The notes under the pieces are model-generated. The model was not told the origin of the DNA, made no database searches, and worked only from the letters and a program-made list of their open reading frames with translations. This document shows positions 40,067 through 61,924 of a stretch of DNA of 64,000 bases, in pieces; the stretch's first letter is position 1; the number at the start of each line of letters is the position of its first letter. Origin of the DNA: Oceanibaculum nanhaiense (lineage in GTDB: Bacteria; Pseudomonadota; Alphaproteobacteria; Oceanibaculales; Oceanibaculaceae); the NCBI RefSeq assembly GCF_002148795.1, contig NZ_MPOB01000006.1:248001-312000 (forward strand). The letters are read 5' to 3'. The position numbers were made by a program, and so were the translations under genes.

Positions 40067-40324
40067 TCAGGGGCGAGGACACGTACGCGCCTGCTCCCGC
40101 ATGACGGCGTAATCGCTCAGCATCTCGGCGATCGCCGAATGTTTCGGCAGCAGATCGAGCTCCTCGGCTGCCCGCGCCTGGAACTCGCGGCTGTACTCGA
40201 CGACCGGCGGACAGACGGTAGCGATACACGGTTCAGAACCGCCCGTCGCGCAGCCGGTCAGCGAGATCATCGCTATCGCGAGGGCGGCGAGCCGCCGCAT
40301 CGAGCATCCGGCGCTGGACATCAT
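40067..40324 (-). CDS. Putative o-spanin (Rz1-like outer membrane lipoprotein)
   Basis: An 85-aa lipoprotein with lipobox LTGC (AIAMISLTGCATGG) and a mature part with two further cysteines and prolines (CIATVCPPVVEYSREF), followed by a helical stretch. It overlaps the upstream membrane protein gene in another frame, the classic nested layout of phage Rz/Rz1. ATG 40324 has a GGAGAAG ribosome site. The complex with the i-spanin would fuse inner and outer membranes during lysis. Converges on the metal island. Confidence 0.72.
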   Translation of the reverse strand: MMSSAGCSMRRLAALAIAMISLTGCATGGSEPCIATVCPPVVEYSREFQARAAEELDLLPKHSAIAEMLSDYAVMREQARTCPRP

Positions 40325-40490
40325 TGGTCTTCTCCGTGGTTTCGAGGCGCTCCGCCATGCGACCGGCGCGCTCACCGGCGCGTCGGAGCGAGAGCAGGAA
40401 AAGGAGCACGGCGATCGCGATGGCGCCGTAGCGCAGGGCCGCCCGCGCCCAAGGGCTGGCGGCAAGCCCGGTGAACAGAGCAGCGATCAT
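40233..40490 (-). CDS. Putative i-spanin (Rz-like)
   Basis: An 85-aa type II membrane protein: one N-terminal helix (ALRYGAIAIAVLLFLLSL) and a charged coiled-coil-like segment (GERAGRMAERLETTEKTND), with an arginine/aspartate-rich end. This is the expected form of an inner-membrane spanin, though shorter than lambda Rz. It overlaps the endolysin stop by 4 nt and the o-spanin gene by 92 nt out of frame. The last step of host lysis is its likely role. Confidence 0.7.
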   Translation of the reverse strand: MIAALFTGLAASPWARAALRYGAIAIAVLLFLLSLRRAGERAGRMAERLETTEKTNDVQRRMLDAAARRPRDSDDLADRLRDGRF

Positions 40491-41161
40491 CGAAGCCCCC
40501 GCTTCCAGTCATCGATGCGGGCGTAGATGGCGACCGCGATGCCGGCGAGGGCCACGGCGATGAACACCCAGCGCAAGGTGTCGAGATAGGGGACGAGCGG
40601 CAGGATCGCGGTCTGGGTTTCCGCCAGGACGTTCTGCGCCACCTCGACGCCAGCGGCGCCAAGCGTCGCCACGCCAGCCGCGCCACCGCCTTTCATCGTA
40701 CGGCTCTCGGCCAGCACCTCTCGCGCAGGCGGGGTCTCTGCCGCGAAGGGCACGGGCCGCGCCGGGAACCGCTCGCCCCACTGCCGCGCGGGGCCGAGAT
40801 CGACGTGCATGAACCCTGATCGCGGGTAGAGGCCAAAGCCGAGGAAGCCGACCTCCCGCGCCGCCGCCTCAAACGCCGCTGGATCGTGGTTCGCCATGGC
40901 AATGTCGAAGGCTGTACCGTCGAGGTGCTTCGAGTGTGGCGCGCCGCCGACGGCCCGGTTGTGCGCCGGGCTCCGGTAGGCCGAGCGGACGATCAGCGGC
41001 CTGCCAAGCTGGTCGCGCAGCGCCTGGAGCTTGTCGAGCGCTTCCTCGTTGATGCGCAGGGAGCCGGTGCCCCGGCAGGCGATCTCGGCGGGGGAGAAAT
41101 TCTTCCAGCGCCATGAGCGCTCGGGCACGTCGCGCCAGTGTTTGTAGGTCATGGTCGTCAT
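40487..41161 (-). CDS. M15-family peptidase endolysin with C-terminal membrane helix
   Basis: A 224-aa protein. Its first ~130 residues form a peptidase M15 (YcbK/D-Ala-D-Ala carboxypeptidase-like) domain with zinc ligands in SKHLDGTAFDIA and GFMHVDLG, plus the RSAYRSPAHNRAVGG signature. A linker and a C-terminal hydrophobic segment (WVFIAVALAGIAVAIYA) follow, which may tether it to the membrane or act as a signal-arrest-like element. It cleaves peptidoglycan cross-links at phage release. A GGAGAC ribosome site precedes ATG 41161. Confidence 0.88.
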   Translation of the reverse strand: MTTMTYKHWRDVPERSWRWKNFSPAEIACRGTGSLRINEEALDKLQALRDQLGRPLIVRSAYRSPAHNRAVGGAPHSKHLDGTAFDIAMANHDPAAFEAAAREVGFLGFGLYPRSGFMHVDLGPARQWGERFPARPVPFAAETPPAREVLAESRTMKGGGAAGVATLGAAGVEVAQNVLAETQTAILPLVPYLDTLRWVFIAVALAGIAVAIYARIDDWKRGLR

Positions 41162-41178: not shown

Positions 41179-41208
41179 AAAAAAGCCCGCTCCTCGACGA
41201 GGGCGGGC
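41179..41208 (-). terminator. Intrinsic terminator between DUF6127 and endolysin genes
   Basis: For leftward transcription, arms at 41208-41203 (GCCCGC) and 41190-41185 (GCGGGC), with a nested CCTCG/CGAGG pairing, are followed by six U residues (41184-41179). It stands 18 bp ahead of the endolysin start, so lysis genes probably need read-through or their own promoter. Confidence 0.75.
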
Positions 41209-41235
41209 GGTGGTCTGATGGGTCGGGCGGATCGG

Positions 41236-41547
41236 TTAAGGCGTCGGCCCGAAAAGCTTCAGCTTGATGGCGATGCCGGCCATCAGGGCGAGCAGGATTG
41301 CGGTGGTGATCAGCCGCACGGAGGTCTGTACGGCGGTCTGTTTCGCGAGGCGGAAACCCGCGAGCAGCGAGCGAAGATCGCGGATGTCCTCGGCGGCATT
41401 TTTGCCGTCGAGGCCAACCTCGCGCAAGGCGCGCCGTGCGCCCGTCTCGGCCGCTCGCTCAAGCAATTTTTCCAACATTTCGCCGGACAGGTTTCCGGGA
41501 GCGGTTCCGGGCATGGCGAAGCCGTCACGATCGTTGGAACGGATCAT
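41236..41547 (-). CDS. DUF6127 family phage protein
   Basis: A 103-aa protein with an acidic helical start (SGEMLEKLLERAAETGARRA), the segment EDIRDLRSLLAGFRLAKQTA and a C-terminal membrane helix (LITTAILLALMAGIAIKL). This matches the DUF6127 family of alphaproteobacterial prophages, where it lies by the lysis genes. It might be holin-related or stabilise the baseplate; the function is unknown. ATG 41547 has GGAAGACC upstream. Confidence 0.75.
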   Translation of the reverse strand: MIRSNDRDGFAMPGTAPGNLSGEMLEKLLERAAETGARRALREVGLDGKNAAEDIRDLRSLLAGFRLAKQTAVQTSVRLITTAILLALMAGIAIKLKLFGPTP

Positions 41548-41672
41548 TCGGTCTTCCTTTCGTCGAAGGCCAGAGGGACAGGCCGGGCTCATGGGAACAG
41601 GCATATGGCCAAGGCATCCTTGTCTGCGCCTGCGCTGCTCTTCAAGGGAATGGATCGGTTTAAAGCCTTCCT

Positions 41673-43946
41673 TCAGGTCAGCCTTTCCTCCAGTTCGAGT
41701 TCGGTAGCGTATCCCTGGAAGTAGCTGTTGCGAATCGGGTTCGTGGCGCGCAGCCGGGCGATGAACACCCGCTCGGCGCGGAACTCGACATCCTCCGGGT
41801 CAGGGACAGTGAGCACCTCACCGGACAACCGGGCTTCGCGCTGCAGCGTCAGCAGGGGGCGGTGCGCCTCACCGGCAGAAGCATGCTCCAGCGTCAGACG
41901 CATGATCCTTGGCGCGGCGCCATCCTGGAACCGGCTGACCCCGCCAAGGCTCCGGATGATCTGTGTATCCGGCTCGGCCCACAACCCGGCTCCATAACTG
42001 TAATTATGCTCGAACCGTACCGCCGGCCCCAGCCACAGCCGGGCGAGATCGAGGAAGCCGTCGGTGCTGGCCCCGTCATCCAGGTCGAAACGCCAGTAGC
42101 GTGCCGCCACGTCCGGCGGGGTAGCCAGCATCATGGCGGCATAGCCCTCGCGCCGCCAATTCCCCTGCCAGACATCGAGCCAGCCGGAATCGTAGGCGAC
42201 GGGGCCGAGCTGCAAGGCAAGCGCGGTACTGGCGCCTTGCAGTTCGCCATCGCCCAGCCGACGGCCATAGAGCTGCAGGCGGGCGAGATGACCGTCCAGC
42301 CGTTCGCCGGCAGGACGGCTTCCGAGATCGAGGCCGGTGACGGCAGGCAGCGTGCCCGGCGTGCCTGTGATCACGGCGCCGCCATCGGCGGCGGCCGAGG
42401 CATTACCGGCGGCGAAGGCGATCCCGGCCACGGAGCCGGTATCGGCGGCGGGACTGCCGGTGGACAAGGCGGCCTGCTCGACCCCGCCGGTGACGATATA
42501 GCCCAGCCTTGCGCCGCCCGCGCCGTGGCGCAGCTCGATACCATTGTCCGTCGTACCGTCATTCAGCCCGGCGATGGCGACCGAGCCGGCGCGCCGGCTG
42601 TGATAGGCGGCCAGCAAGGTGCCTTCCGCCATCGAGCCGTCGAGCGCCAGCCTTGCACTGTCGGCGGCGCGGGTGGCGGGATCGCCTTCTGTCGGGATAT
42701 AGCTGCTGGCGTCCGGCCCTTCCTCGGCCTGCGCGCCCCAGACCAGCAGCCCGCTCGTACCGTCGCCGGCATAGTTGCCGCCGGGATTCAGCAGGCGGCA
42801 GGCGGCGAGATAGGACGTCTCCCCGGCGATCGATCCGGTCAGCATGCAGCGCGCCCAGCCCCCGGCCAGCGGGACCAGCCGCGCCGAGAGCGCCGTGCCC
42901 GCCCCGCCCTGCGCGGTTGTCGCGGTGCCGGCGGCAAGGTCGAAGGTGCCTTGCGCATAATCGCCGCCGCTGGACAGCACGAGCGCAAGGCGCGTCCGCT
43001 CCGCCGGCTTCACGAACAGGCTGAAGGTGACCGCAGCGCCTTCCGTCACGGTGGCGGATTGCGTGATCTGGTGGATGCCGGTGGTGGCGCTCTCGACCAG
43101 CATGTCGGCTTGCAGGCTGCCATCCGGCGTGGCGCCGGCGTCGGCGGTGATGGTCGCATTCTGCTTCGTCCAGACGGCATCGCCGAACTGGGCGCTGCGT
43201 GCCAGCAGGTTGGTGCGCTCCCCCTCGATCAGGAAGCCGCGCGGCGTGCCGCTGGCCGGCTCATGGTCCTGCCGCCACCCATAGCGCGCGGCCAGGCTCT
43301 CCAGCCGCCAGGTGATGGTGGAGCTGCCGGTTCCGGAGACGCTGGCGATGGCGAGGCAGGCGCTGCCGCTCTGCTTCTCGAAGGCGGTCAGCGTGCCGTC
43401 GAGATAGCGGCCAGCATCCTCAGGATCGGCCAGTCGCACCGCCTCGCCAGCCCAGAAGGCACGGTCCTTCTGCTGCAGCGTCACCTCCAGCGTGCCGGGC
43501 GGATCGAAGCCGTCCAGATTGATGGTCAGCGGCTCGGTCAGCCCATAGCCCTGAAGCCGGCCGTTCCGGTCGAAGCGGGTGGCGAGGCTGGACCGGGTGA
43601 AGGCGATGCGCGGATCCTCCGGCCCATAGCCGGTGAAGTCGAGATCGAGAAGCGGTCCCGCCAGGCGTGCATCGTCGCCGGCCCGCACACGATAGCGCGC
43701 CGTGGAGCCGGGGCAGCCGGGGGCGGGGGCGGCAACCGCCCCGAACAGGGCGGCCAGGCCGATCGCTTTCGCCTCGCCCAGATCCGCGACAATGGCGGTG
43801 TCGGCGGTCCGGTTGCCCAGCGTGCGCGCCGCCTTCGACAGGCGGTCATCCGCCAGTGCCGTTTGCGGCAGCGATTCTGCCCAGCGCCCGCCGGCGAGAT
43901 CCGCGCGGTCAGCCTCGTTCACCCAGCCGATCAGAAGCTTGCCCAT
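41673..43946 (-). CDS. Phage tail tip/fiber-like structural protein, 757 aa
   Basis: A large beta-rich protein without signal. The start (MGKLLIGWVNEADRADLAGG) is seen in the last structural protein of related prophages. The middle has two carbohydrate-binding-like modules (GFLIEGERTNLLARSAQFG, TFSLFVKPAERTRLAL and GLLVWGAQAEEGPDASSYIP), a pattern shared with receptor-binding tail proteins, and also found in the next upstream protein. It probably forms the tail tip or host-recognition part. Exact role unproven. Confidence 0.75.
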   Translation of the reverse strand: MGKLLIGWVNEADRADLAGGRWAESLPQTALADDRLSKAARTLGNRTADTAIVADLGEAKAIGLAALFGAVAAPAPGCPGSTARYRVRAGDDARLAGPLLDLDFTGYGPEDPRIAFTRSSLATRFDRNGRLQGYGLTEPLTINLDGFDPPGTLEVTLQQKDRAFWAGEAVRLADPEDAGRYLDGTLTAFEKQSGSACLAIASVSGTGSSTITWRLESLAARYGWRQDHEPASGTPRGFLIEGERTNLLARSAQFGDAVWTKQNATITADAGATPDGSLQADMLVESATTGIHQITQSATVTEGAAVTFSLFVKPAERTRLALVLSSGGDYAQGTFDLAAGTATTAQGGAGTALSARLVPLAGGWARCMLTGSIAGETSYLAACRLLNPGGNYAGDGTSGLLVWGAQAEEGPDASSYIPTEGDPATRAADSARLALDGSMAEGTLLAAYHSRRAGSVAIAGLNDGTTDNGIELRHGAGGARLGYIVTGGVEQAALSTGSPAADTGSVAGIAFAAGNASAAADGGAVITGTPGTLPAVTGLDLGSRPAGERLDGHLARLQLYGRRLGDGELQGASTALALQLGPVAYDSGWLDVWQGNWRREGYAAMMLATPPDVAARYWRFDLDDGASTDGFLDLARLWLGPAVRFEHNYSYGAGLWAEPDTQIIRSLGGVSRFQDGAAPRIMRLTLEHASAGEAHRPLLTLQREARLSGEVLTVPDPEDVEFRAERVFIARLRATNPIRNSYFQGYATELELEERLT

Positions 43947-43947
43947 G

Positions 43948-46134
43948 TCACCCCCAGGCCTGCAGGATCGCGCGTCCCTGCGCGTGGGATTCGGTCACAC
44001 CGATCAGGATCAGCGGCCGGCCCGCCGCATAGTCGAGGAAACATTCGTCGCGATAGAATATCTCGTCGCCGAGCCAGGGCGCGCCGGCCAGGAGATACTC
44101 ATCCACAGTCACCTCAAGCTCGACCAGGTCCCGACGCACCGACATCAGCGCCAGCTGCCGCTCCGCCTCCCCATCGGCATCCGTCTCGCTCTCCAGCAGC
44201 GTCATGCGGCGCAACTCGGCGGACAGCGGATGCTTCCGTTTCACCGCCGGCGCATCCCGCTGCACAATTCGGTATTCCTCCTTCAGAAAGGCGCGGCGGT
44301 CGGCCGAGACGCTCCCGGCCAGCTGGTCGCCTTCCTGTACCGTCCAGTTGCGCCGCCAGCCCAGAACCACGCGATGGTTCGGCAGACCCTGGCCTTCGTC
44401 ATTGCGCGACAGCAGCCGCACATCCTGGACCTGAGTGCGGTCGAACGTGGCCGCCGGATTGCCCGTAGGCGCTTCCAGCCGCCGGACCGCCAGCTTGCCG
44501 TCGCGGGTGAAGTACCAGAAGCCGCCGATGCTCCCGCAGATCAGATCGAAGGCCTCGGCTATCGTCATCTCGCGGTCGATGAACAGGCCGAGGCCGATGC
44601 CCGCAGTGGCCTCGTTGAGCGCCTGGAAGCTGGCATGGTCGAGATCGAGGAAATCGACGAGATCGGAACGGGTGACGGCGATGGTGCGCAGCATGTCGGC
44701 AGGCTGAGCGGTATAGCTCGACGGGTGCGGCGTGCCGCCGGTGACGATGCAATTCTTCGCCACGTTGCCCAGCTCGATCTGTGCGCCCCAGGCATAGATC
44801 GCCGCAGCATCCCCGAGGCTGAAGATGCCGGGCGACACGCTGGAGCCGGAGACGGTCTCGGTCAGGGTGTAACGCCGCCAGGTCTCATCCAGATGGATTG
44901 CCTCCTCGGTTGCCGCTTCGATGCCCATGCCCAGCGTGACGCTGCCGATGACGCTGCGCAGATAGATCGAGAAGGTGTAGGGCTGGCCGGAGGTCACGCT
45001 GACGCTCTGGCGGAAGCCGGCACCGTCATCGGCGGGGATGTCGATGCGCTCGGCAGTATAGCCGCCATTCGGGCCGATGATGACGTCGTTCTGGACCGTC
45101 ACACCTGTATCCTTCACCCAGGCCGGATTCATGAACTGCTCCGACCAGAGGAAAAGGTTTTCCAGCCGCTCGCCCGAGACCTTGGCGGTGATGGTGCCGG
45201 CCGGGCTGCCGCCCAGCGTGACATGGCCCTCGGTCACGTTCTCCCGGTACTGGCCGGCGGCGGGCGTGCCGGTGACTTTCGACAAGGGCGCGCCCCGGTC
45301 ATAGAGTTCGTCCACCGAGAAGATCGAGCCGGTATGCGCGCCATAGCGCAGCGCCGCCGTGTTCAGCGGGGCCAGCGGCACATTGTGGCACAGGCCGTAG
45401 CACAGGATCTTCGGTCGGCCCCTTATATCCTGCGGCGTGCCCTCGTTGCCGGTCGGGCCGCTGTTGGTGCCGGCGTAAGTCTCGCGCTGGATCGGCACCT
45501 CGAACTGCGCCTGCCGGTCGCGCAGGAACAGATGCAGGTGCAAATCGCGCCATTCCGCCTGCGCTGCCGTGCCGGAAAACAGCAGGACAAAGTCCCGCCA
45601 CCGCCCGCCCGCAGGCCCTCGGAACAGCCTGAACCGGCGACCGTCCCAGCCCGCGCCGGCGAAGCGGTCGAAGAAACGGTCGGCATTGTTCAGGATCATC
45701 TCGCCGCCACCGCCCGCCGACCGGCCGCCGATCCGGCCATCCCGGAAGGCGAAGGCCTGAAAGCTGGGAGGTTCGACGATCAGCGGCATGGCCTCGATGC
45801 CGGGACGGTCGGGATCGTCCGGTCCGGTTCGCCAGCGACCGGTTGCCACCAGCAGGGTTCTGGCTCCCTCGACCCGCCAGTCGCTGTAGGTGCCGTCACC
45901 GGAAACCCCGTGGACATCCAGCGCCAGACGGCGATCCGTCTGGACATAGGCCATGACGACCGCGTCCAGCCGCGCTGCGCCTGATGCCTCGTAAACGGAA
46001 ACCCGCATGCCGGGCTCGAAAGGCTGGTCCGTCTCCAGGATCAGTTCCGCAGGGCCGGTTCCGACCGTGATCCCGGAGGAGCTGGTGCCGACCAGATAGA
46101 GATCGATTTCGGCAAGATAGATCGCATCGCTCAT
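43948..46134 (-). CDS. Phage tail protein with embedded carbohydrate-binding-like module, 728 aa
   Basis: The N-terminal part (residues ~1-290) and C-terminal part (~460-728) resemble tail hub/baseplate proteins of siphoviruses: RPKILCYGLCHNV and the region SVDELYDRGAPLS are frequent in this family. Between them lies a carbohydrate-binding-like insert (NLFLWSEQFMNPAW, YTFSIYLRSVIGS, AIYAWGAQIELGN) that is similar in kind to that in the downstream gene. It overlaps the tape measure gene by 4 nt and precedes the fiber-like gene by one base. Likely part of the tail tip. Confidence 0.78.
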   Translation of the reverse strand: MSDAIYLAEIDLYLVGTSSSGITVGTGPAELILETDQPFEPGMRVSVYEASGAARLDAVVMAYVQTDRRLALDVHGVSGDGTYSDWRVEGARTLLVATGRWRTGPDDPDRPGIEAMPLIVEPPSFQAFAFRDGRIGGRSAGGGGEMILNNADRFFDRFAGAGWDGRRFRLFRGPAGGRWRDFVLLFSGTAAQAEWRDLHLHLFLRDRQAQFEVPIQRETYAGTNSGPTGNEGTPQDIRGRPKILCYGLCHNVPLAPLNTAALRYGAHTGSIFSVDELYDRGAPLSKVTGTPAAGQYRENVTEGHVTLGGSPAGTITAKVSGERLENLFLWSEQFMNPAWVKDTGVTVQNDVIIGPNGGYTAERIDIPADDGAGFRQSVSVTSGQPYTFSIYLRSVIGSVTLGMGIEAATEEAIHLDETWRRYTLTETVSGSSVSPGIFSLGDAAAIYAWGAQIELGNVAKNCIVTGGTPHPSSYTAQPADMLRTIAVTRSDLVDFLDLDHASFQALNEATAGIGLGLFIDREMTIAEAFDLICGSIGGFWYFTRDGKLAVRRLEAPTGNPAATFDRTQVQDVRLLSRNDEGQGLPNHRVVLGWRRNWTVQEGDQLAGSVSADRRAFLKEEYRIVQRDAPAVKRKHPLSAELRRMTLLESETDADGEAERQLALMSVRRDLVELEVTVDEYLLAGAPWLGDEIFYRDECFLDYAAGRPLILIGVTESHAQGRAILQAWG

Positions 46135-49100
46135 CGGATGGCTATCAGCCTCCCCAGCTGCTGACGCAGGTCGGTCATCTCACGGCGCATCGCCGTCAGC
46201 TCGTTGCGCGACTGGCCTTCCTCGCGGCGCACGGTCTCGGCGGAGGCGCTGCCGGCCTGCAGGATGGCCGCGGAGAGTGCCTGCTGCAGCGCGCGGATAT
46301 CCGCCCGCAGCCCCCTGATCTCATCCTCCGGCATGGCGCTGCTGCTGCCACCGGAGCGGATCATGTCGACCAGCCGTTCGGGCGAATAGATGCGGGCCGG
46401 GCCGGTCACTTCCAGTTCCGGCCCGCGCTCTCCGACCAGGCGCAGCCCGCCGGCATGGGTGCCGCCATAGGCGAAGGTGGGGGTGCCGCCAGCCGCGATC
46501 AGGGCGGCCCGGTAGGCGTCGCGGAAATCGGAGTCGCTGGCGATGCGGGCCTGCACCACGCCGCCACCGGCGGAGGTCTGGCCGAGGCTCACCAGGATGG
46601 CGTCCCGGACCTCGCGTGGCACGCCCTGGATCAGGTCGCCCGACGTGCCGACCGTGGCGCCATAGCTGCCCGGCACATAGCTCACACTGCCACCGCCGGA
46701 TCCGCCGCCTCCGGACCCGCCAGTGCCGGAGCCCAATTGCGCGTTCTGGATCGCTGCGGCAATCTCTGCCAGGAGGGCATTGGCCTGATCGAGACTGGCG
46801 ATCACCAGCCGGTCGCCATTCACCAGCTGGTCGAGACGGTCCAGCTCGGCGCGGGTAGCCGCCAGCTGCTGCTCACCAATGGAAAGATGCCGTCCGGCCA
46901 GATTCTCGGTGTCGCGCAGGACCTCCTGCACCCGCTCGAAATCCCGGTAATACTCTTCCGACGAGGCATAGAAGGCCCGGCTCGCCTCCAGCAGACGGCG
47001 GCTGGATTCCGGCAGTCCGGCCAGCGCCTCCTGATCACCCAGACGGGCCCGGCGTTCCAGATCCTCGAACTGCCGGCGGGCTTCTTCCAGCCGGTCAGCC
47101 GGTGATAAGGGCGACAGCGATTGATCCACCAGCAGCCCCTCGCGGGCGCTGCGCAGCTGCGCCGCCAGCCGGCGCCAGCCTTCGACGATGCGTTCCTGCT
47201 CGCCCAGGAACTGCCGTGTCGCGCGCAGCTGCGTGTCGATCTGGCTCCGCTGCTCTGCCGACAGGAAGGCCGCTGCTTCACCCATCTGCGACAGCAGCTC
47301 GGTCGCCGCGCGGACGATCGGCGCATTGTTCTCGATGGTGCTGTAATACTCGATGACATTGCGCAGCGTCTGCCCGTCCACCCCGGACAGCGCCTCGCGC
47401 AACCCGGCATCGCGCAAGGTGCGCAGCGTGCCCAGCACCTGGTCGGATACACCCAGCTCCGCCGCCGTATCGCGGTCCGCCCGGAAGTCGGCCAGCACTT
47501 CGCCCAGACCGCCCGTAACCCCGCCATTCAGGCCCATGCCGCGTGCCGTCACGCCACGCACGAAATCACCCGCCACCTTCTCCTGCGCGCGTTCCAGCGC
47601 CGCGATCCCGGTCTCTGCGGAAATCCCGACCTCGGCCAGCAGCGGCCCGATCTCCTCCATCAGCGCCGCGATCCGCCGCCATTCCGCCTGCACCGGCGTC
47701 AGCGTCTCATAGGTCGCCTGGCGCAGGCCGATCAGGATCTCGACATAATCCCGCGTCGCCTGCGCGGCGCGGCCGGTATCCAGCCCGGCATCGGCTGCGT
47801 TCTGGCGATAGGTCTGGATATCCTCCAGCGTGCCCAGCACCTGGTCACGCACCTGCCCCTCGATGACATCGCCCAGCGACAGGGCACCCTGCGACAGTGC
47901 CTTCAGGCTGCTCTCGAAACTCTCCGCGAAGCCCAGCAGCTCGGCGCTGCGCTGCAGCCCCAGCTCGACGAAATCCAGCCCTTCGACAACCTTCCGGGCA
48001 TTTTCCGACAGGCCTTCGGACCGGCGCAGGATCTCCTGCAGCATGCCGGCGGTCAGCTGATCGGCGCTGTCGAACTTGCCCTCATACAACTTGTCGTCGC
48101 GATTGACCGACCCGTCCGGATTGGTGCCGAACAGCCAGCCCCGGCGGCCATCGCGGCTGCCCGTTGCGAAATCGATATAGAGACCTTTCGGCAGCTGCGC
48201 GCCCAGCGTGCGGGTCAGCTCATCCAGCGAGGCCTCGAACACGCCCTGGATCTGGTCGCGCTCGGACCTCGTCTGGTCGTTCGCCTTGTCCTCGGTCTTG
48301 ATCAGCCGGCCACCCAGCGGCCCCTGGAAGCTGGCCGTATAGTCCGAGGGGCGAGAACCGAAGAGCTTGCCGAGCACGAAGGGGGCGGCGATCGCCATGA
48401 TCGGCAGGGCCACGGAGAGCATCGGCGCGATCCCGGCCAGCGGCGCCGCCGCCGCGATACCCATATTGCTGGCGCCACCGGCAACGGCCGAGACACCCAG
48501 GCTGGCAGCCGTGGCCCCACCGGCCATGGTGCCGACGGCAGTCGCGCCGAACAGCGAAGGCACGGCGCTGGCCAGCCAGTTGCCGTTATGCAGCATCTGA
48601 CCGAAATCCCAGGCCGACTTCGCGCCGGAAATGGTGGACAGCATCCCGCCGCCATTGCCCGATACCATGTCGCCCAGCGTCGGCAGGGTGGCGCTGCCGG
48701 TCACCGCATTCTTCAGCGGGTTGATGGCCGCCAGCTGGATGAAGCTCTGATACAGCTCCGACGCCATGGCGCGGCCGATATTGCCCATGTCGAGCAGGTC
48801 GCGCTTGCCGGTGGCCAGCGCCTGGGTCAGCGCCTCGCCGATCCGGTCGAAGCCCCGCGTCAGGCTGTCGCTGAAGAAACTGCCGGCCTCGCGGGTGCGC
48901 GCCAGCTCGTCCTGCGCATCCACCATCTCCGTTGCCAGCTTGCGCGCGGCCTCGGCCGTCAGCAGCGTATCGCGGCGCAGCAGCGCCTGGGTCTGCTGTA
49001 CCACCTTGTACTCGCGGTCGGAGATCTTCAGCGCCGCCGTCAGGGCGCGGGTCTCGCCGATCTCGCGCGTCGTCGCCTTGACCAGGTCCTCGCGTTCCTT

Positions 49101-50642
49101 GATCAGGGCCAGCGCGCGCTTCGAGGCATCGGCCCGCGCCTTCTCATCCTCGACAGCGGCAGCGGTCGCGGCCTCGGTCGCCAGCTTGCGCCGGTTCAGC
49201 GCCGCCGCGATCTGCCCTTCCAGCTCCACCTGCTGGCGCGCCTGAGGCAGGTAGCGCTCGACCAGCGCGCGCAGCTCCTCCTGGCTGAGGCCGGTCAGGC
49301 CCAGCTGGGCGGCGTGCGCCTTTGCCGCCTGCCCGGCGATCTTCAGCGCCTTTTCCTCACGGTCCAGCGCTGCGACCTGCGCCAGGCTGCCCTGGCTGGC
49401 CGCAAGATACCGCTCCTCCAGCGCCGCGATCGCCCGCGACAGATCCTCGGCCGCACGGATCGTCGGCTCGGTCTGCGCCGGCGGCGGTGCCGGCGCGCCA
49501 TCGGGCGGGCCCTGCAGATAGGCGCGTCGGGCTTCCAGGCCCCGGATCGCCCGCTCGACCTTTTCCAGTTCGTCGCGCATCCGGGCCAGCGCGTCCGGAT
49601 CGCCGAACAGCTGGTCGAACAGACCACCGCCGGCATGTTCCTGGCTGCCGATGGCCTGCCGCAGCCGTGTCGCCCGTTCCTGCAGCTCGGCCAGGTTGCG
49701 CTCGACGGTGACGATCGAATGCTCTTCCGGCGGCTCGAAGGCGTCCCACAGATAGCGGGCCTCCTTCGCTGCCGACAGCAGCTTGGTGGCGACCCCATCA
49801 ATGAGCGGCGTCAACTCCAGCAACGCCACCTTCAGCTTGGTATCCATCACCTGCGCCAGCGTGCCCAGGTGATTCTCCGCTTCGGCGGCGCGGGCCACCA
49901 TCTCGCTGTCGATCACCAGGCCCAGGTCGCGGGCATCTTGCGCAAAGCGGTCCAGGCCATCCGACCCGTCCTTCAGCATGCGCAGCATCGCCACGCCTTC
50001 AGAATCGAACAGCTTGAAGGCGATGCGTACCCGGTCGGCCTCGGTCGGCACGCGCTGCAGCGCGTCCGCGACCTCGCGCAGCAGCTGCTCCGCCGGCTTC
50101 ATCTGGCCGTTGAAGTCCCGGACCGACACGCCCAGCTCGTTCAGCGCACCCAGCGCCTCGCCGGTGCCGCGCGCGGCCTCGGCCGAACGGCGGATGAAGC
50201 GCTGCAGCGCCATGTCGGCGGTGCCGATGGCGATCCCGCTCTCGCTCGCCGCGAATCGCAGTTCCTGTAGCGCCTCGACATTGATGCCCAGCGTCTGCGC
50301 GACATCGTCCAGCGCTGCAATCTCGCGCGCGGCGCGCAGGAAGCCGGCGAAGGCCAGCGTCACCGTGCCGATACCGGCAGCGGCAGCGATGCCCGCCGGA
50401 CCCAGCGCCCCCAGCACCGTGCCAGCCGGCCCGACCCGGGATGCCAGCCCGGCAATACCGTCCCGTGCCGAACTGCTGGCCGTGTTCAGCGCCAGCAGGC
50501 CGCGCGTCGGCTCTTCCGTCGCACGCGCGATCTTGCGCAACGCCAGTTGGCCCTCGGTCCCCAGCTCCTTCAGCGCCTTTTCCACGACCTCCTTGTCGCG
50601 GATCGACAGCCGGATCGACACGCCCCTCGACTGATTGGCCAT
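46131..50642 (-). CDS. Phage tail tape measure protein
   Basis: A 1503-aa protein dominated by long alpha-helices and coiled coil, with a central hydrophobic, glycine-rich region (residues ~640-760; LGVSAVAGGASNMGIAAAAP, MLSVALPIMAIAAPFVLGK) that is typical of tape measures. The C-terminus carries a glycine run (GTGGSGGGGSGGGS) and a coiled coil. It sets tail length and is ejected into the host. ATG 50642 has an AAGGGTG ribosome site. At this length the tail would be about 220 nm by the usual 0.15 nm per residue rule. Confidence 0.92.
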   Translation of the reverse strand: MANQSRGVSIRLSIRDKEVVEKALKELGTEGQLALRKIARATEEPTRGLLALNTASSSARDGIAGLASRVGPAGTVLGALGPAGIAAAAGIGTVTLAFAGFLRAAREIAALDDVAQTLGINVEALQELRFAASESGIAIGTADMALQRFIRRSAEAARGTGEALGALNELGVSVRDFNGQMKPAEQLLREVADALQRVPTEADRVRIAFKLFDSEGVAMLRMLKDGSDGLDRFAQDARDLGLVIDSEMVARAAEAENHLGTLAQVMDTKLKVALLELTPLIDGVATKLLSAAKEARYLWDAFEPPEEHSIVTVERNLAELQERATRLRQAIGSQEHAGGGLFDQLFGDPDALARMRDELEKVERAIRGLEARRAYLQGPPDGAPAPPPAQTEPTIRAAEDLSRAIAALEERYLAASQGSLAQVAALDREEKALKIAGQAAKAHAAQLGLTGLSQEELRALVERYLPQARQQVELEGQIAAALNRRKLATEAATAAAVEDEKARADASKRALALIKEREDLVKATTREIGETRALTAALKISDREYKVVQQTQALLRRDTLLTAEAARKLATEMVDAQDELARTREAGSFFSDSLTRGFDRIGEALTQALATGKRDLLDMGNIGRAMASELYQSFIQLAAINPLKNAVTGSATLPTLGDMVSGNGGGMLSTISGAKSAWDFGQMLHNGNWLASAVPSLFGATAVGTMAGGATAASLGVSAVAGGASNMGIAAAAPLAGIAPMLSVALPIMAIAAPFVLGKLFGSRPSDYTASFQGPLGGRLIKTEDKANDQTRSERDQIQGVFEASLDELTRTLGAQLPKGLYIDFATGSRDGRRGWLFGTNPDGSVNRDDKLYEGKFDSADQLTAGMLQEILRRSEGLSENARKVVEGLDFVELGLQRSAELLGFAESFESSLKALSQGALSLGDVIEGQVRDQVLGTLEDIQTYRQNAADAGLDTGRAAQATRDYVEILIGLRQATYETLTPVQAEWRRIAALMEEIGPLLAEVGISAETGIAALERAQEKVAGDFVRGVTARGMGLNGGVTGGLGEVLADFRADRDTAAELGVSDQVLGTLRTLRDAGLREALSGVDGQTLRNVIEYYSTIENNAPIVRAATELLSQMGEAAAFLSAEQRSQIDTQLRATRQFLGEQERIVEGWRRLAAQLRSAREGLLVDQSLSPLSPADRLEEARRQFEDLERRARLGDQEALAGLPESSRRLLEASRAFYASSEEYYRDFERVQEVLRDTENLAGRHLSIGEQQLAATRAELDRLDQLVNGDRLVIASLDQANALLAEIAAAIQNAQLGSGTGGSGGGGSGGGSVSYVPGSYGATVGTSGDLIQGVPREVRDAILVSLGQTSAGGGVVQARIASDSDFRDAYRAALIAAGGTPTFAYGGTHAGGLRLVGERGPELEVTGPARIYSPERLVDMIRSGGSSSAMPEDEIRGLRADIRALQQALSAAILQAGSASAETVRREEGQSRNELTAMRREMTDLRQQLGRLIAIR

Positions 50643-50660
50643 GAAACACCCTTCGGACAC

Positions 50661-50684
50661 AAAAAACCCCGCCGAAGCGGGGTT
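50661..50684 (-). terminator. Intrinsic terminator before the tape measure gene
   Basis: Leftward, arms 50684-50677 (AACCCCGC) and 50672-50665 (GCGGGGTT) enclose a TTCG tetraloop, followed by a U run that continues to 50661. The UUCG loop is very stable. It lies only ~20 bp upstream of the tape measure start, and separates it from the DUF6441 gene. Confidence 0.85.
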
Positions 50685-50719
50685 CTGTTACCAGCAAAAA
50701 ATCAAAAATGGCGATTCAC

Positions 50720-51382
50720 CTAATCGGCCTCACCGCCCCCATTAACTGCGCGCGCGACCGTGCGGTAGAGAGTGTCGAGCGCCCGCTTTTCTGCCCGCGC
50801 CACGTCCAGCACTTTCGGCAGCGTCACCTGCGGCAGCAGGATGAAGATCGGCACCGTCGTGCGCCCCCTCAGCCTTGTGTAGGTCCCGGTCCTGGAGCGG
50901 GTGACATTGGCCCGGGCGACGCCCCTGCCATCCAGCCGCGCATTATCGGCCACCAGCAGCGAGGGCGCGCCCCGCCGGTACACCAGCCGCAGCCGCTGGC
51001 CGTGCCGGCGCTCCCACTCGCCAGGCGTCAGCCGCTTGCCGCCGCTGCCGCGACCAGCCGCATCAGTCGGCACCGCCAGAAAGAAGCCATCACGCGACCG
51101 AATCGTCATCCCCTCGTCGAAGGCCCGCACGATTTCCGGCGCCTTGGAATAGACCAGCGCCGCCGGCCCCAGCGTCTGCTTGTGGCGTGGCGGGTAGATC
51201 TTGTCCTGCCAGGTCCGCGCCAGCCGCTCGCCCATCCCGGCCCCGGTCACCTGGCCGCGCAGCTCCTGTTTCAATCCCGTCGAAGCCTCGGTGACCCCGG
51301 CCCGCAACCTGTCGGCCAGATCGCCCCGCTCGCGGGCCAGAACCTCCATCAGATTGCCTTCCAGCGCCGATCCCAGCCTCAT
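50720..51382 (-). CDS. DUF6441 family phage tail protein
   Basis: A 220-aa protein opening MRLGSALEGNLMEVLARERG, rich in arginine, with a conserved core around LARTWQDKIYPPRHKQTLGP and FDEGMTIRSRDGFFLAVPT and an IFILLPQVTLPKVLDV end. This is the DUF6441 family, found between tail chaperones and the tape measure in alphaproteobacterial siphophages. ATG 51382 overlaps the preceding stop by 4 nt; longer starts would read back into that gene. Confidence 0.82.
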   Translation of the reverse strand: MRLGSALEGNLMEVLARERGDLADRLRAGVTEASTGLKQELRGQVTGAGMGERLARTWQDKIYPPRHKQTLGPAALVYSKAPEIVRAFDEGMTIRSRDGFFLAVPTDAAGRGSGGKRLTPGEWERRHGQRLRLVYRRGAPSLLVADNARLDGRGVARANVTRSRTGTYTRLRGRTTVPIFILLPQVTLPKVLDVARAEKRALDTLYRTVARAVNGGGEAD

Positions 51383-51642
51383 GACCGGTCCTTTTCCTCG
51401 AAAGGCCGCACCGCCTCGCTCATCAGGGCGAAAGCGTCCAGCATGATCGCCGCCTGGTCGCCCGTACCGCCGGCTTCCGGCAGATGCCCCACGCCGCCGA
51501 GCCCGCCGCCGCGATACTGACCCCACAGCCTGGCCATTGCCCAGTCCTCCGAGGTCAGCCGCAGCACCGGATTGCGGCGATAGCGCCAGCCGGCGATCTC
51601 CCAGCAGCTGCCATCGACGGCCCGGCCCTCCCCGTCCATCAT
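51379..51642 (-). CDS. DUF1799 family phage protein
   Basis: About 87 aa, with the DUF1799 pattern EDWAMARLWGQYRGGGLGG and LPEAGGTGDQAAIMLDAFAL. The gene is in the place of the second tail assembly chaperone, which in many phages is produced by frameshifting from the first; here it starts close to the end of the 247-aa gene (51690), which ends in an A/T-rich stretch (51690-51700). The start is uncertain: ATG 51642, ATG 51639 or an upstream GTG are all possible. Confidence 0.7.
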   Translation of the reverse strand: MMDGEGRAVDGSCWEIAGWRYRRNPVLRLTSEDWAMARLWGQYRGGGLGGVGHLPEAGGTGDQAAIMLDAFALMSEAVRPFEEKDRS

Positions 51643-51689
51643 CTCGTCGCCGAAATCCCCGGGGCGCAGGGCCGCCACGGCGACGATGG

Positions 51690-52433
51690 TCAGTTTTTTA
51701 CCGTCTGCTCCGGGATCTGGTGCATCAGCTCCAGCGCCTTGCGGCCGATCGCCGACACATGCTCCGCCGGCAAGGCCGAGAGGCAGGCCGTCGTCACCCG
51801 ACCGGCCCGGGCCTCGTACTTGATGGCCAGCCCCTCCCACCCACGCAGGAAAAGCTGCGCCGCCACGATAGGCGCGGTGCGGGTATAGCGCTCCCGCGCC
51901 GCCAGCAGAGCATCCAGGTCGGGGAAGTGCCCGCGCAGCTGCGCCGTCATGTCGCCGATCCGCACCTCCAGGGACGCCGGCCAGCGCTCCTCCGGCAGAA
52001 CCTCCGCCTCATCCAGGATATCCGCCAGCTCCGGTTGCTGCTGCGGCTCGACGCAGAATTCGACGGCGCGGCGCAGAGTGCGCACCACCTCCCCGCCCGC
52101 CGGGAAGCGGCAGCCATGCTCGGTCATCGCCGCCGGGAAGGCGGCCCGCTGGAAGGCATCAGCAGCGGCGATCAGATAGACCGGCTCTTCCGGCTCCGCT
52201 TCCTTGCGGGCCTTCAGCGCCGCCAGCTCCGCCTCGCCTTCCTCCAGCATCCGCTGGAAGCGCTTCCGGTCAACCTCGCCACCGGCGGTCAGTTCGGTGG
52301 CGGAATCGGCTATGACCTCCATCCCCGAGGCAACAGCGCGCAGTGCCTCCAGCTCGCGCTCGCCGCGCGTCACTGCCTCCGCCAGAACCTGGAAGCGCAC
52401 CGGCGTTTTTGCACTGACCGGCAGCATCACCAC
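51690..52433 (-). CDS. Probable tail assembly chaperone-like phage protein, 247 aa
   Basis: A soluble helical protein located between the tail tube gene and DUF1799, where the gpG-like assembly chaperone is expected. The N-terminus (VKTP- to RFQVLAEAVTRGERELEAL) is followed by acidic helices and a segment WEGLAIKYEARAGRVTTACL. It overlaps the tail tube gene by 7 nt. At 247 aa it is longer than common chaperones, so the assignment rests on position. It ends KN-stop in a run of A residues. Confidence 0.65.
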   Translation of the reverse strand: MVMLPVSAKTPVRFQVLAEAVTRGERELEALRAVASGMEVIADSATELTAGGEVDRKRFQRMLEEGEAELAALKARKEAEPEEPVYLIAAADAFQRAAFPAAMTEHGCRFPAGGEVVRTLRRAVEFCVEPQQQPELADILDEAEVLPEERWPASLEVRIGDMTAQLRGHFPDLDALLAARERYTRTAPIVAAQLFLRGWEGLAIKYEARAGRVTTACLSALPAEHVSAIGRKALELMHQIPEQTVKN

Positions 52434-53827
52434 ACCTGCAGGAAGAGGCCGCTATCCTGCCCCTGGAGAAAGAAGCCGATCTGTTCGGTCTGCACCCCCT
52501 GCCGGTCACCCGGCTGATAGGAGGTGTAGAGCGCCGACGGGATGGCGAGGCCGACACGCTGGCCCGGCCGGGCCGCCGAACCGCCGGCCAGGCGGGCGGC
52601 GACCGGCTGCGCCGTGCCGTCACGGAAGGCGGTCATCAGATCCCGCGTCGCGACCAGGGTAGCGTTCGGGTCCATCGAACCGGTCATCCGGCGGCGGGTG
52701 ATGATCGGCGCGTCGAAGCCCTCCTGCCCGTTCGGGTCCGGCGGGAAGATCACCTCATTGCCAAGATCGACCGAGAGGGTCTGCAGGGCGGCGCGGCGCT
52801 TGTTCACCAGCATGGCCGAATTCCGCCAGATGCCCGGACGGGTGCCGTCATAGGTAACGGACGGCACCGCCGCATCATCTTTCTCATGCATCAGCGCCGA
52901 GATGGTGTAGGTGCAGCGCGCAGCACCGCCGGCGGTCTGCTCGATTGACAGGGTCGCCTTGGCCCCGGTGCAGCGATAGACCACGCCGTCCATGTAGAGC
53001 GTAACCGACGCTGCCGGGATCGAGCTGCTTGCCGGCGCATAGCGGATATTGGCCGGGATCGAGGCCACCGTGCTGGCGCTGAGCGGCGTCTCGAAATAGT
53101 CCGCCAGCGTCGCTACCCGGCCCGCCGTATAGTCGAGGATCTGGCTGATATAGGGCGCAGCCGGATTGCCCGACAGCGCGACCGGCATGCCGCGATAGAG
53201 CTGCGCCGTATTCGCCCAGGGCGCCTGCAGCGTGATGCTGTCGACACCGCCTGCGGTCGCCTCCACCGCGGCGATGCCCCGGCGCAGGGTGACATTCTCC
53301 CCCGCCGCCTCATCCACCATCGCCGTGGCGCCGGTTAGCCGCGCCACCACGATGGCGCCAGCCGCCGAGGTCGTGACGATGAACTCGCCATTGTTCGCCT
53401 CATTGGCGAAGCCGGAGACATGGATCACTGTGCCGACGGTCAGCGCCGCCAGCCCATCACCGCTGTCGGCGATCTCCGCCGAGGCGCCGGTGACCGAGAA
53501 GGTGACGCCGGTAATGTCCGTCCGGGTCTGGGTCGCCGCCATGCCGGCGATGCGCATCAGCAAGTCCCATTCCGGATATTCGCCCGGAACGCCGGGGCCC
53601 TTCAGGTAGAAGGCACCGCCGATGGTGACCTGCATGCCGCCGACGATCGGCGCTGTCGAGTCGAGCGAGCCCTGGACCTCATCCGTCTCGACATTCTGCG
53701 TCGTCGGGTTGATTGTCGGGGCCTCGACCAGGATGCCGTCGGTTGCCGGATCCGGGGCCTCATAGGTGCCGGGCACCGATTCCTGCTTCAGCAGCAGCGC
53801 GCCATTGCGGGTGCGGAGAGTGGCCAT
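52427..53827 (-). CDS. Phage tail tube protein
   Basis: A 466-aa beta-rich protein beginning TLRTRNGALLLKQESVPGTY, a common start of major tail tube proteins, and containing GGAFYLKGPGVPGEYPEWD and ALMHEKDDAAVPSVTY. An inserted Ig-like region at ~100-190 (SGDGLAALTVGTVIHVSGFA, GEFIVTTSAAGAIVVARL) makes it longer than average. Many copies would stack around the tape measure. It has a GGAGTAA ribosome site. Confidence 0.85.
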   Translation of the reverse strand: MATLRTRNGALLLKQESVPGTYEAPDPATDGILVEAPTINPTTQNVETDEVQGSLDSTAPIVGGMQVTIGGAFYLKGPGVPGEYPEWDLLMRIAGMAATQTRTDITGVTFSVTGASAEIADSGDGLAALTVGTVIHVSGFANEANNGEFIVTTSAAGAIVVARLTGATAMVDEAAGENVTLRRGIAAVEATAGGVDSITLQAPWANTAQLYRGMPVALSGNPAAPYISQILDYTAGRVATLADYFETPLSASTVASIPANIRYAPASSSIPAASVTLYMDGVVYRCTGAKATLSIEQTAGGAARCTYTISALMHEKDDAAVPSVTYDGTRPGIWRNSAMLVNKRRAALQTLSVDLGNEVIFPPDPNGQEGFDAPIITRRRMTGSMDPNATLVATRDLMTAFRDGTAQPVAARLAGGSAARPGQRVGLAIPSALYTSYQPGDRQGVQTEQIGFFLQGQDSGLFLQVW

Positions 53828-53833
53828 ATCGGA

Positions 53834-54076
53834 TTACTCCTTCTTGCCGGAGGACGGGGCGCCAGAGGATGTGGAAACGGGCTTGCCAGCGGGTGCACCG
53901 GACCTGACAGGCCGGGTGACGGCCTCAGCCCTGGCGGGAGCCGCACCACCGGCAGCAGTGCCAGCGGGCGTCGCGGGCGGAAGTACGGGCTGCGCCGCGG
54001 CGGCCCCATCGATCAGTTCATGGCGCAGTGCGCCGCCACCGGGCACAGCGGCCCGGCGGAAGGTCGGAATGGTCAT
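53834..54076 (-). CDS. Small alanine/proline-rich phage protein, 80 aa
   Basis: An 80-aa low-complexity protein. The first 25 residues (TIPTFRRAAVPGGGALRHEL) look structured; the rest is Ala-, Pro- and Ser-rich and ends SSGKKE. It lies six bases before the tail tube start and just after a terminator, in the same direction. It may be an accessory capsid or tail peptide. No family recognised. Confidence 0.6.
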   Translation of the reverse strand: MTIPTFRRAAVPGGGALRHELIDGAAAAQPVLPPATPAGTAAGGAAPARAEAVTRPVRSGAPAGKPVSTSSGAPSSGKKE

Positions 54077-54089
54077 CTGAACCTCCATG

Positions 54090-54141
54090 AAAAAACCGCG
54101 CGGTGCGCGGAGGGTTGGCGGGCGGCGCTGCGCACCGCGCG
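54090..54141 (-). terminator. Long-stem intrinsic terminator downstream of the tail terminator gene
   Basis: Perfect 12-bp arms (54141-54130 CGCGCGGTGCGC; 54108-54097 GCGCACCGCGCG) with a 21-nt loop precede G and six U residues on the leftward transcript. It separates the connector genes from the tail tube group. Arms are fully GC-rich, so termination should be efficient unless antiterminated. Confidence 0.8.
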
Positions 54142-54150
54142 AAACATCAG

Positions 54151-54612
54151 CTAAGGCGCGGGTTCGTAAGGATCGCCGTCGTCGGTGGCGTAGATGATGG
54201 TCAGGGTGAGTGCAAAGACGATGCCTGCCTCCGTGCCTTCCTCGCGCACCAGCTCCTGCGCGAAGCCGGCCTCCTCGATATCGACGGCAATATTGCCGAG
54301 CGTCGTATCAGCCAGCGCCGCCGCCAGCGTCTGGCCATAGAGAGTGCTCGCCGCCGCCCCCAGATCCTCGTCCCGCCCGGCCGCGACATGGCCTTCCAAA
54401 TAAGCGGTAAGCCGGAAAGGCCAGAAATGCGTAGCCCTGCCCTCGAAATCCGGCTCGTGCCCGCCATCGATCAGGATAACCGCCGGCATCGACTTCCTGT
54501 CAGGCCGGCGGCGGCGGTTGCGCGTGACCGTGATGCCCTGCGGGGCCAGGCTGGCCAGCAGCTGCTGGTGCAGGGCATCGAGGCACCGCTCGCGGACAGT
54601 CATCTCCGGCAT
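54151..54612 (-). CDS. Probable phage tail terminator protein, 153 aa
   Basis: A 153-aa protein of mixed alpha/beta content. Its start (TVRERCLDALHQQLLASLAP), central strands (PAVILIDGGHEPDFEG, FWPFRLTAYLEGHVAAG) and end (GIVFALTLTIIYATDDGDPY) follow the fold expected for tail terminator/minor tail U-like proteins, which cap the tail tube and join the head. It is three bases downstream of a connector gene. Assignment is by position and shape. Confidence 0.7.
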   Translation of the reverse strand: MPEMTVRERCLDALHQQLLASLAPQGITVTRNRRRRPDRKSMPAVILIDGGHEPDFEGRATHFWPFRLTAYLEGHVAAGRDEDLGAAASTLYGQTLAAALADTTLGNIAVDIEEAGFAQELVREEGTEAGIVFALTLTIIYATDDGDPYEPAP

Positions 54613-54615
54613 GGT

Positions 54616-54981
54616 CTACTCCTCATCTTCCGTGGCAGGCACAAGCCAGAGCCGCCACAACAGCCGGTCCGGCTCCGGCCGCTCCGCCATATCGACCCGC
54701 AGCGTCTCATCCACACCCCCATCGGCGTCCAGCAGATCGACCAGGTCGTCCTCATCGACCGACGCCAGCTCCGCCACGCGGATCTCACCGATCCGCGTCG
54801 TGCTGCCGGTACCGGTCTGCAGCAGGGGGATCGCCGCATCGCCCGTCATCCAGGCCATGCGGCAAGGGGTGGGATCGCCGCCGGCCGCCGGGCGGACCAG
54901 GACATCCACGGCCATAAACGGGTCCGCATGGATCGCGGCCAGCATCGAATCCCAGGAGCCACCTGCCATGTCCATACTCAT
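54616..54981 (-). CDS. Probable head-tail connector protein, 121 aa
   Basis: A 121-aa protein starting SMDMAGGSWDSMLAAIHAD, with a central beta segment (STTRIGEIRVAELASVDEDD) and a WRLWLVPATEDEE end. Its size and place between the capsid decoration gene and the tail terminator fit the head-tail joining (gpFII-like or ATPase-type stopper) group, and proteins of this group often hold the motif for stopper function. No catalytic motif present. Confidence 0.65.
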   Translation of the reverse strand: MSMDMAGGSWDSMLAAIHADPFMAVDVLVRPAAGGDPTPCRMAWMTGDAAIPLLQTGTGSTTRIGEIRVAELASVDEDDLVDLLDADGGVDETLRVDMAERPEPDRLLWRLWLVPATEDEE

Positions 54982-55025
54982 CCGGCATGACCTTTGCGGA
55001 ACATTCCCATCATCGGATGCCGGCA

Positions 55026-55361
55026 TCAGAAGCTGCCGTTGAGCCGCACCCGGCCGATGGTATCGGATGCACCGCCGCCGACGGCATCCACCGCGACGCC
55101 GATCGCCGTATTCCCCGAGGCGGTCTTCGTTGCCACCTTGGCGGTGTTGTCCCAATAGACCTTGTCGCCGACCGCCCAGGCTTGCGACGCCGCCTTGATC
55201 AGATCGAAGATGCCGACGAGTGCGGCCTCGACCATCTCGCCATTCACGGCGTTTCCGGCGGCCACACCGAACATGGAGCCGACGAGCATGCCGTCGCCGG
55301 ACGCGACGTCGTAGGGCGCGGTGAGGGTGATCGTGTTGCCGGGTTGAACGTAGTTCTTCAT
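55026..55361 (-). CDS. DUF2190 family capsid decoration protein
   Basis: A 111-aa beta protein: it begins KNYVQPGNTITLTAPYDVAS and contains GMLVGSMFGVAAGNAV, YWDNTAKVATKTASGNTAIG and a final IGRVRLNGSF. This is the DUF2190 pattern, found just after capsid genes and thought to be a cement/decoration protein. A terminator-like hairpin between it and the capsid gene would reduce its expression relative to capsid. Confidence 0.9.
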   Translation of the reverse strand: MKNYVQPGNTITLTAPYDVASGDGMLVGSMFGVAAGNAVNGEMVEAALVGIFDLIKAASQAWAVGDKVYWDNTAKVATKTASGNTAIGVAVDAVGGGASDTIGRVRLNGSF

Positions 55362-55376
55362 CGCTGGTGTCCTCTT

Positions 55377-55407
55377 GAAAAGACGAAGGGCGGCTCAATG
55401 GCCGCCC
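55377..55407 (-). terminator. Terminator-like hairpin after the capsid gene
   Basis: Arms 55407-55401 (GGGCGGC) and 55394-55388 (GCCGCCC) with a 6-nt loop precede a U-rich tract (TTCGTCTTTTC) on the leftward strand. The U run is interrupted, so it may be partial. Confidence 0.6.
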
Positions 55408-55444
55408 GTCTCGTCAGGGTTCAAATGTCAGTGGTCGGCCCGGC

Positions 55445-61835: not shown

Positions 61836-61847
61836 TCAAAGTCAGTC

Positions 61848-61866
61848 GCTTATGTCGTTGATAAGC
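61848..61866. promoter_or_regulatory. Inverted repeat in divergent promoter region
   Basis: GCTTAT (61848-61853) and ATAAGC (61861-61866) form a dyad with a 7-nt spacer in the 89-bp gap between the leftward late operon and the rightward 91-aa gene. It is a candidate operator for a phage regulator not encoded here. Confidence 0.35.
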
Positions 61867-61924
61867 CTCCGGGATAGAGCGAACGTTCATCCCAAAAGGA
61901 CGATGCAACTTACCCGGAGCCACC

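Follow-up and report, generated by a model that had tools for sequence, protein, structure and literature searches.

Terminator-like hairpins at four gene boundaries of a prophage late operon in Oceanibaculum nanhaiense: candidate leaky terminators

We analysed a 64,000-nucleotide (nt) stretch of Oceanibaculum nanhaiense (contig NZ_MPOB01000006.1, positions 248,001 to 312,000), henceforth the window, which holds part of a prophage that extends, by gene content, from ~40.05 kb to ~79.8 kb in window coordinates. The late genes of this prophage lie on the minus strand in an operon of about 20 kb, and at four boundaries between them stand hairpins with T tracts, here termed H1 to H4. The original prediction had claimed four such hairpins with U tracts, and all of them are present on the minus strand: it placed them at 54090, 50661 and 41179, which are exactly the 3' ends of T tracts, and at 55377, one nucleotide off the actual end at 55378. 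The four elements, with their d scores where these are high, are as follows.

55378..55415, minus strand: H1, between the capsid and cement genes; hairpin with a short T tract
54090..54141, minus strand: H2, upstream of an 80-residue gene; stem with T6, d 24.2
50661..50682, minus strand: H3, upstream of the tape measure ATG at 50642; stem with T6, d 34.7
41179..41208, minus strand: H4, upstream of the M15 endolysin ATG at 41161; stem with T6, d 37.2

The d score follows the formula of d'Aubenton Carafa and requires a stem and a T run jointly. H1 has an inner stem GGGCGGC/GCCGCCC at 55407-55388 and an outer one, GACGA/TCGTC, followed by TTTT at 55381-55378; its T tract is weak (d 0.1), although the hairpin itself is strong. 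H2 has a 12-bp stem, CGCGCGGTGCGC/GCGCACCGCGCG, at 54141-54097 with T6 at 54095-54090, and an alternative compact hairpin at 54110-54096 abuts the same T6; the long stem is the minimum-energy fold in the window and in the related locus L244, the compact form in L174. A Shine-Dalgarno-like GGAGG and the ATG at 54076 come next. H3 is a stem-loop, CCCCGC-TTCG-GCGGGG, at 50682-50667 with T6 at 50666-50661, and H4 (GCCCGCCCTC-GTC-GAGGAGCGGGC, at 41208-41185) pairs GCCCGC with GCGGGC and CCTC with GAGG around GTC, with an A between GAGG and GCGGGC, and is followed by T6 at 41184-41179. The stem ends 20 nt from the next start codon in H1 (outer stem; 27 nt from the inner), 19 nt in H2, 23 nt in H4 and 24 nt in H3.

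An intrinsic terminator consists of a stable G+C-rich hairpin directly before a T run. Judged by sequence, H2, H3 and H4 are textbook intrinsic terminators of this form, while H1 is marginal. Among 19 gene starts in the window, d exceeds 0 at H1 to H4 alone (just 0.1 at H1). An Rfam search of 40-62 kb at gathering thresholds gave no match, and a known RNA family was accordingly rejected as the identity of the hairpins.

A strict scan of 40-62 kb (free energy of folding, dG, of -9 or lower, a compact stem and a tail score of at least 3.8) found three sites on the late strand, namely H2, H3 and H4, and none on the opposite strand. Dinucleotide shuffles of the same region had a mean of 0.09 sites, and 0 of 100 reached three. 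With the tail score lowered to at least 3.0, there were 6 sites against a shuffle mean of 1.1 (0 of 100 shuffles reach 6), and at 2.2 or above, 8 sites against 3.1 (1 of 100 reaches 8). A chance origin of H2 to H4 is rejected by the shuffles of the strict scan; H1 fails its T-tract cut, so that chance is not rejected for it on the T tract alone and the case for H1 rests on relatives. The wider replicon gives a further yardstick: 340 kb of contig C6 hold 31 strict sites, 26 of them intergenic by the gene caller, and of the 94 co-directional gaps in the host that measure 20-150 nt, 1 has d above 15 and 2 have d above 0. The corresponding count of prophage gaps with d above 15 is 2/11 by the gene caller and 3/12 once the missed gene behind H2 is added by hand (Fisher 0.004 for 3/12 against 1/94; 0.028 without the hand-added gene).

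The late operon runs from terminase and portal through a fused protease-capsid gene, cement, head-tail attachment, tail terminator and a small gene to a tube-like tail protein, three more genes, the tape measure and two large tail genes, and closes with a DUF6127 protein, the M15 endolysin and small genes. Those on which the argument draws are listed here.

59315..61309, minus strand: terminase large subunit, close to the start of the late operon (PF05876, PF20454)
55445..57499, minus strand: fused head protease and major capsid protein (phrog_4523, Phage_capsid_4)
55026..55361, minus strand: cement/head decoration protein (PF09956, phrog_122)
54151..54612, minus strand: tail terminator protein (phrog_4204)
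53834..54076, minus strand: small gene after H2, 80 residues, without a family (no PHROG match)
52427..53827, minus strand: tail protein, probably tube-like from its operon position (phrog_290, minor tail protein)
46131..50642, minus strand: tape measure protein (phrog_973 and others)
41236..41547, minus strand: DUF6127 protein with a C-terminal hydrophobic stretch, a possible holin (PF19622)
40487..41161, minus strand: M15-type peptidase, probable endolysin (phrog_17373 peptidase, phrog_894 endolysin)

Where the small gene after H2 differs from two relatives, the differences concentrate in third codon positions (11 of 17 and 6 of 11). The description of the hairpins as each directly preceding a structural or lysis gene holds for cement (start at 55361), tape measure (50642) and M15 endolysin (41161) and lapses at H2, whose 80-residue gene lies within the tail module and has no known family.

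Relatives were drawn by the capsid protein (the best 80 from viral contigs and the best 80 of 372 from genomes), by the endolysin (the best 80 of 188 from viral contigs) and, for the group of Pseudomonas phage LPPA33 considered below, as the best 80 of 399; all counts are of distinct junction sequences and not of independent lineages. The named hosts of the genome-derived capsid relatives are, as we understand their taxonomy, Alphaproteobacteria, barring one record named 'bacterium'. At the endolysin start, d exceeds 0 in 59 of 72 distinct junctions with 27 hairpin sequences (shuffles 1/180), and such an element is missing in 13; in a separate count, 12 of 73 had no match, 7 of these with a gap of ~160 nt. 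In 53 of the 59, the T run follows the stem without any spacer, and its distance to the ATG varies between 19 and 27 nt. Thus, the T run is tied to the stem and not to the ATG, which is the pattern that a terminator requires. Runs of at least four T are present ahead of the start in 57/72 endolysin junctions, compared to 0/76 for the large terminase gene (terL), 1/32 for portal, 2/129 for capsid, 10/128 for cement and 0/53 for g85; being scarce at these other starts, they are not general to starts in these operons.

At the capsid-cement junction, d exceeds 0 in 83 of 128 distinct sequences with 29 hairpin sequences (shuffles 0/180), and 115 of 118 gaps fold better than their own shuffle (median -20.8 vs -13.1). 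At four other starts in the relatives, with up to 60 distinct junctions per gene, d never exceeds 0 (terL 0/60, portal 0/34, capsid 0/60, g85 0/55). Both the H1 and the H4 sites look to be under selection from this recurrence. A gap of more than 120 nt separates capsid from cement in 18 loci (not made non-redundant, several sharing contigs); L117 and L119 among them retain an H1-kind hairpin.

H2 and H3 are each retained in the few close relatives found, H2 with an altered loop and arm. Of 25 tape-measure loci kept, 22 had a usable match, and a strong element stands before a start only in the window, the same-genus genome G002 and L371; five viral relatives inspected by eye had none. The L371 locus, a distant tape-measure relative, has an element of d 50.7 located 25 nt upstream of an in-frame start and is an apparent independent case of H3. 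A set of 142 distinct capsid loci, many of them ending short of the endolysin, has just 5 strict coding-strand sites with a long T run, and as 3 of these come from the window, the density of such sites here is unusual.

A second phage group has comparable sites. Pseudomonas phage LPPA33, with 39% capsid identity, has d above 20 at three of its 27 late-gene junctions, including the one ahead of cement. Its relatives have d above 10 at 46/60 distinct cement junctions, 13/14 at g13 and 12/18 at g15 (after the tape measure), with shuffles at 0/180, 0/42 and 0/54, respectively. The other starts of this group are nearly free of them: portal 0/58, capsid 0/20, g7 0/30, g8 0/7, g9 0/6, g10 1/13, g11 0/3, g12 1/7, tape measure 0/14, g16 0/21 and g17 0/7. 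A count of capsid-cement hairpins as such was dropped for this group, given that 61 of 61 shuffled gaps fold to -10 or lower. In Stenotrophomonas phage S1, the 22-nt capsid-cement gap is without an element, and one of d 3.0 stands before the annotated endolysin gene (1/10 junctions). The conservation of the H1 and H4 sites and the comparable sites in the LPPA33 relatives speak for a function. No published description of these sites in this phage group was found with the terms used among titles and abstract openings of the open literature.

The original prediction had proposed looking for promoters after each hairpin. A scan for sigma-70-type promoters listed none on the late strand of 40-58 kb, its single match being on the opposite strand, against 1.3 expected, and internal promoters that restart transcription were rejected on this ground. 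Moreover, the hairpins end ~19-27 nt before the start codon, too short a space for a promoter to fit. Without promoter room or a sigma-70-type site, the downstream genes would rely on read-through. The proposal that the hairpins give either stepwise lower expression or a need for an antiterminator thus fits the anatomy, and two of the sites are conserved; it sits poorly with the weak T tract of H1.

Other phages offer precedents. In phiX174, terminators TJ, TF and TG are reported to stop about 40-60% and TH 90% (PMC11527146), with read-through yielding stepwise falling transcripts (PMC9135205). The present operon, as known from sequence, is alike in having candidate leaky terminators between structural-region genes (PMC11527146 and PMC9135205 for phiX174), with no promoter directly behind them (19-24 nt; sigma-70-type scan, 40-58 kb). 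It differs in that phiX174 is a small phage with three canonical promoters, whereas this is a ~20-kb operon of a temperate tailed phage without a listed internal promoter (40-58 kb). T7 and LUZ100 are reported to have a strong stop directly behind the major capsid gene, and the LUZ100 authors propose sequential read-through over termination sites (PMC10134795). A stop signal right after the major capsid gene, putative in H1, is the shared feature; in those phages, capsid transcription depends on a phage RNA polymerase and a local promoter (PMC10134795), neither of which was found here. Such intergenic signals in the structural regions of phiX174 (PMC11527146, PMC9135205) and T7-like phages (PMC10134795) make the premise that late operons usually lack them too strong.

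The account that we favor, to which we give about an even chance, is that the four elements are leaky terminators segmenting one read-through late transcript. Four intercistronic hairpins of the intrinsic-terminator type, each abutting the ribosome-binding site of the next gene, lie in one long late operon; some polymerases would stop at them, providing stable 3' ends to the capsid, head-completion and tail messenger RNAs (mRNAs), and the remaining ones would read through, so that the transcript level falls in steps, being highest for capsid, lower for the tape measure and lowest for the lysis genes. The stronger stops would be H2, H3 and H4, and H1 a weak one, chiefly a 3'-end or 5'-leader hairpin. 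That RNA polymerase actually stops at the four sites, and does so only partially, is inferred. As two of the four sites are kept in relatives, the hairpins probably tune the amount of each virion part, and leaky stops are a simpler reading than a modified polymerase, with a known model in phiX174. If partial termination holds, the virion stoichiometry of a temperate phage group would be encoded in short hairpins, each recognisable from its sequence and open to testing on its own.

A number of observations weigh against this account. A ready-made terminator scan of 40-58 kb on both strands gave 5 sites vs 5.6 in shuffles; it listed H1, H2, a poorer pairing of H4 and two opposite-strand sites and missed H3. 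A host gap of 100 nt also has a strong element, 48 nt ahead of the start. H2 and H3 are limited to the Oceanibaculum-type tail module except for one case (L371). At the H1 site, d exceeds 10 in just 8 of 60 cement junctions, and of 118 distinct capsid-cement gaps (<120 nt), 36 are without a qualifying T tail. All 118 hold a hairpin with a dG of at least -14.5 in stability, but so do 44 of 118 shuffles, and hairpin presence alone was rejected as weak evidence for that reason. Covariation is slight, with few double changes, in the alignments of both H1 (51 sequences picked for diversity, L248 left out) and H4 (29 diverse sequences; L024, L060 and L074 left out), and was dropped as structural proof for either; in the H4 consensus, the T tract is additionally predicted to base-pair with the Shine-Dalgarno region. 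The close relatives L174 and L244 are without H1. The cement protein is presumably required at near-capsid amounts, and an expression drop at H1 is therefore not an obvious gain; H1 may as likely serve mRNA stability or translation as termination. No element with d above -5 was found in the Rhodobacter phages RcKemmy (24 junctions) and RcOceanus (8) or in Vibrio phage 1.055 (10).

The same H1 data bear on a reading in which the hairpins do not terminate at all and are elements of mRNA processing, stability or translation start, with the stem 5' of the Shine-Dalgarno sequence and the T tract as a U-rich spacer. This is possible, though we find it doubtful. It would account for the 78 of 118 H1 gaps in which 20-21 nt separate the stem end from the ATG, for the gaps that lack a T tail and for RcKemmy and RcOceanus, in which no T tract follows the hairpin of the equivalent gap. 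It does not explain why the T run at H4 tracks the stem rather than a fixed distance to the ATG, nor why T runs are frequent at endolysin junctions and rare at other late starts. The sites might also be left-overs or boundaries of accessory genes (morons) gained and lost at these places, given that moron-associated terminators adjoin the insertion sites of accessory genes. Inserts do occur there: in L174 (12092-12703) an antisense pair of a ParE toxin and a ParD/RHH antitoxin replaces H1, with a similar stretch in L244; in L096 an antisense gene stands just ahead of a retained H3; and the loci with long capsid-cement gaps speak in the same direction. These inserts are antisense, however, so a late-strand terminator is not theirs; elements of the H1 and H4 type are frequent where the gap is too short for a gene, and they are present on the late strand also without an accessory gene. 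The hairpins of the window follow late-operon genes and not an accessory gene with its own promoter, and we regard a moron origin as very improbable.

The remaining alternative is that the terminators are efficient and that the late operon is read by a phage-modified polymerase, through an unrecognised protein or RNA antitermination system, with the tail and lysis genes shielded from stray transcripts in the lysogen; on balance, it appears unlikely. The strong scores of H2 to H4 (d 24-37) with no promoter fitting behind them, and the position of H4 immediately ahead of the endolysin gene, would suit it. So would the gap upstream of the small terminase gene (61836-61924), where, in a diverse set of 26 sequences to which the window belongs, 21 have a CTTATC..ATAAG-type palindrome and 18 a CGCTC[TC] stretch, with CGCTCT at a comparable place in 6 of 12 diverse sequences of the LPPA33 group; in principle this could be a site of antitermination or late control. 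The conserved stretch could equally be a cos site or a late operator as a nut-like site, and it is uncertain at which codon the small terminase gene starts. In the lambda Q type of antitermination, terminators of the late operon must be passed, and a first one is expected between the late promoter and the first late gene. The late strand between the small terminase gene and the window end has no terminator-like site, with the late promoter not located. The Q-like gene that the original prediction had suggested seeking did not come to light either: families PF06530 and PF03589 have no match in the genome, in contrast to the Escherichia coli control, which matched both, and no antitermination family appeared among the prophage proteins scanned (7 larger early ones were not scanned). 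Should termination be full, an antitermination system missed by the searches would have to be present in these phages. A more speculative extension, which we consider quite improbable, is that two phage groups independently place terminators abutting ribosome-binding sites at capsid, tail and lysis boundaries, the alphaproteobacterial ones being strong and released by unrecognised processive antitermination from the conserved site at the upstream end of the operon.

Some further features of the prophage and its relatives may be recorded. Beyond the window, in window coordinates, L253 has genes with a DUF6362 match (65017-65397) and a sigma-70 region 4 match (73874-74497), the products of which could be candidate late activators or regulators. 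At the far end of the prophage (the ~79.8 kb side) is a gene that we take from its sequence to be serine-recombinase-like. Two small overlapping genes follow the endolysin at 40067-40490; their PHROG matches are of function unknown, and from their translations we presume a resemblance to an Rz/Rz1 spanin pair. The antisense insert of L096 (12380-14248), between g268 and the tape measure, encodes 622 residues with RTX repeats and M10 serralysin domains. On the opposite strand of the 142 capsid loci there are 25 strict sites, 23 of them within genes, and 21 of the 25 fall at a single recurrent position, where a tail gene has an A7 run on its coding strand. This run is conserved in the gene downstream of capsid in many relatives (e.g., L087:13984-14024 and L177:16118-16162) and, since the tail chaperone gene of RcKemmy is annotated as two joined pieces, may be a frameshift site.

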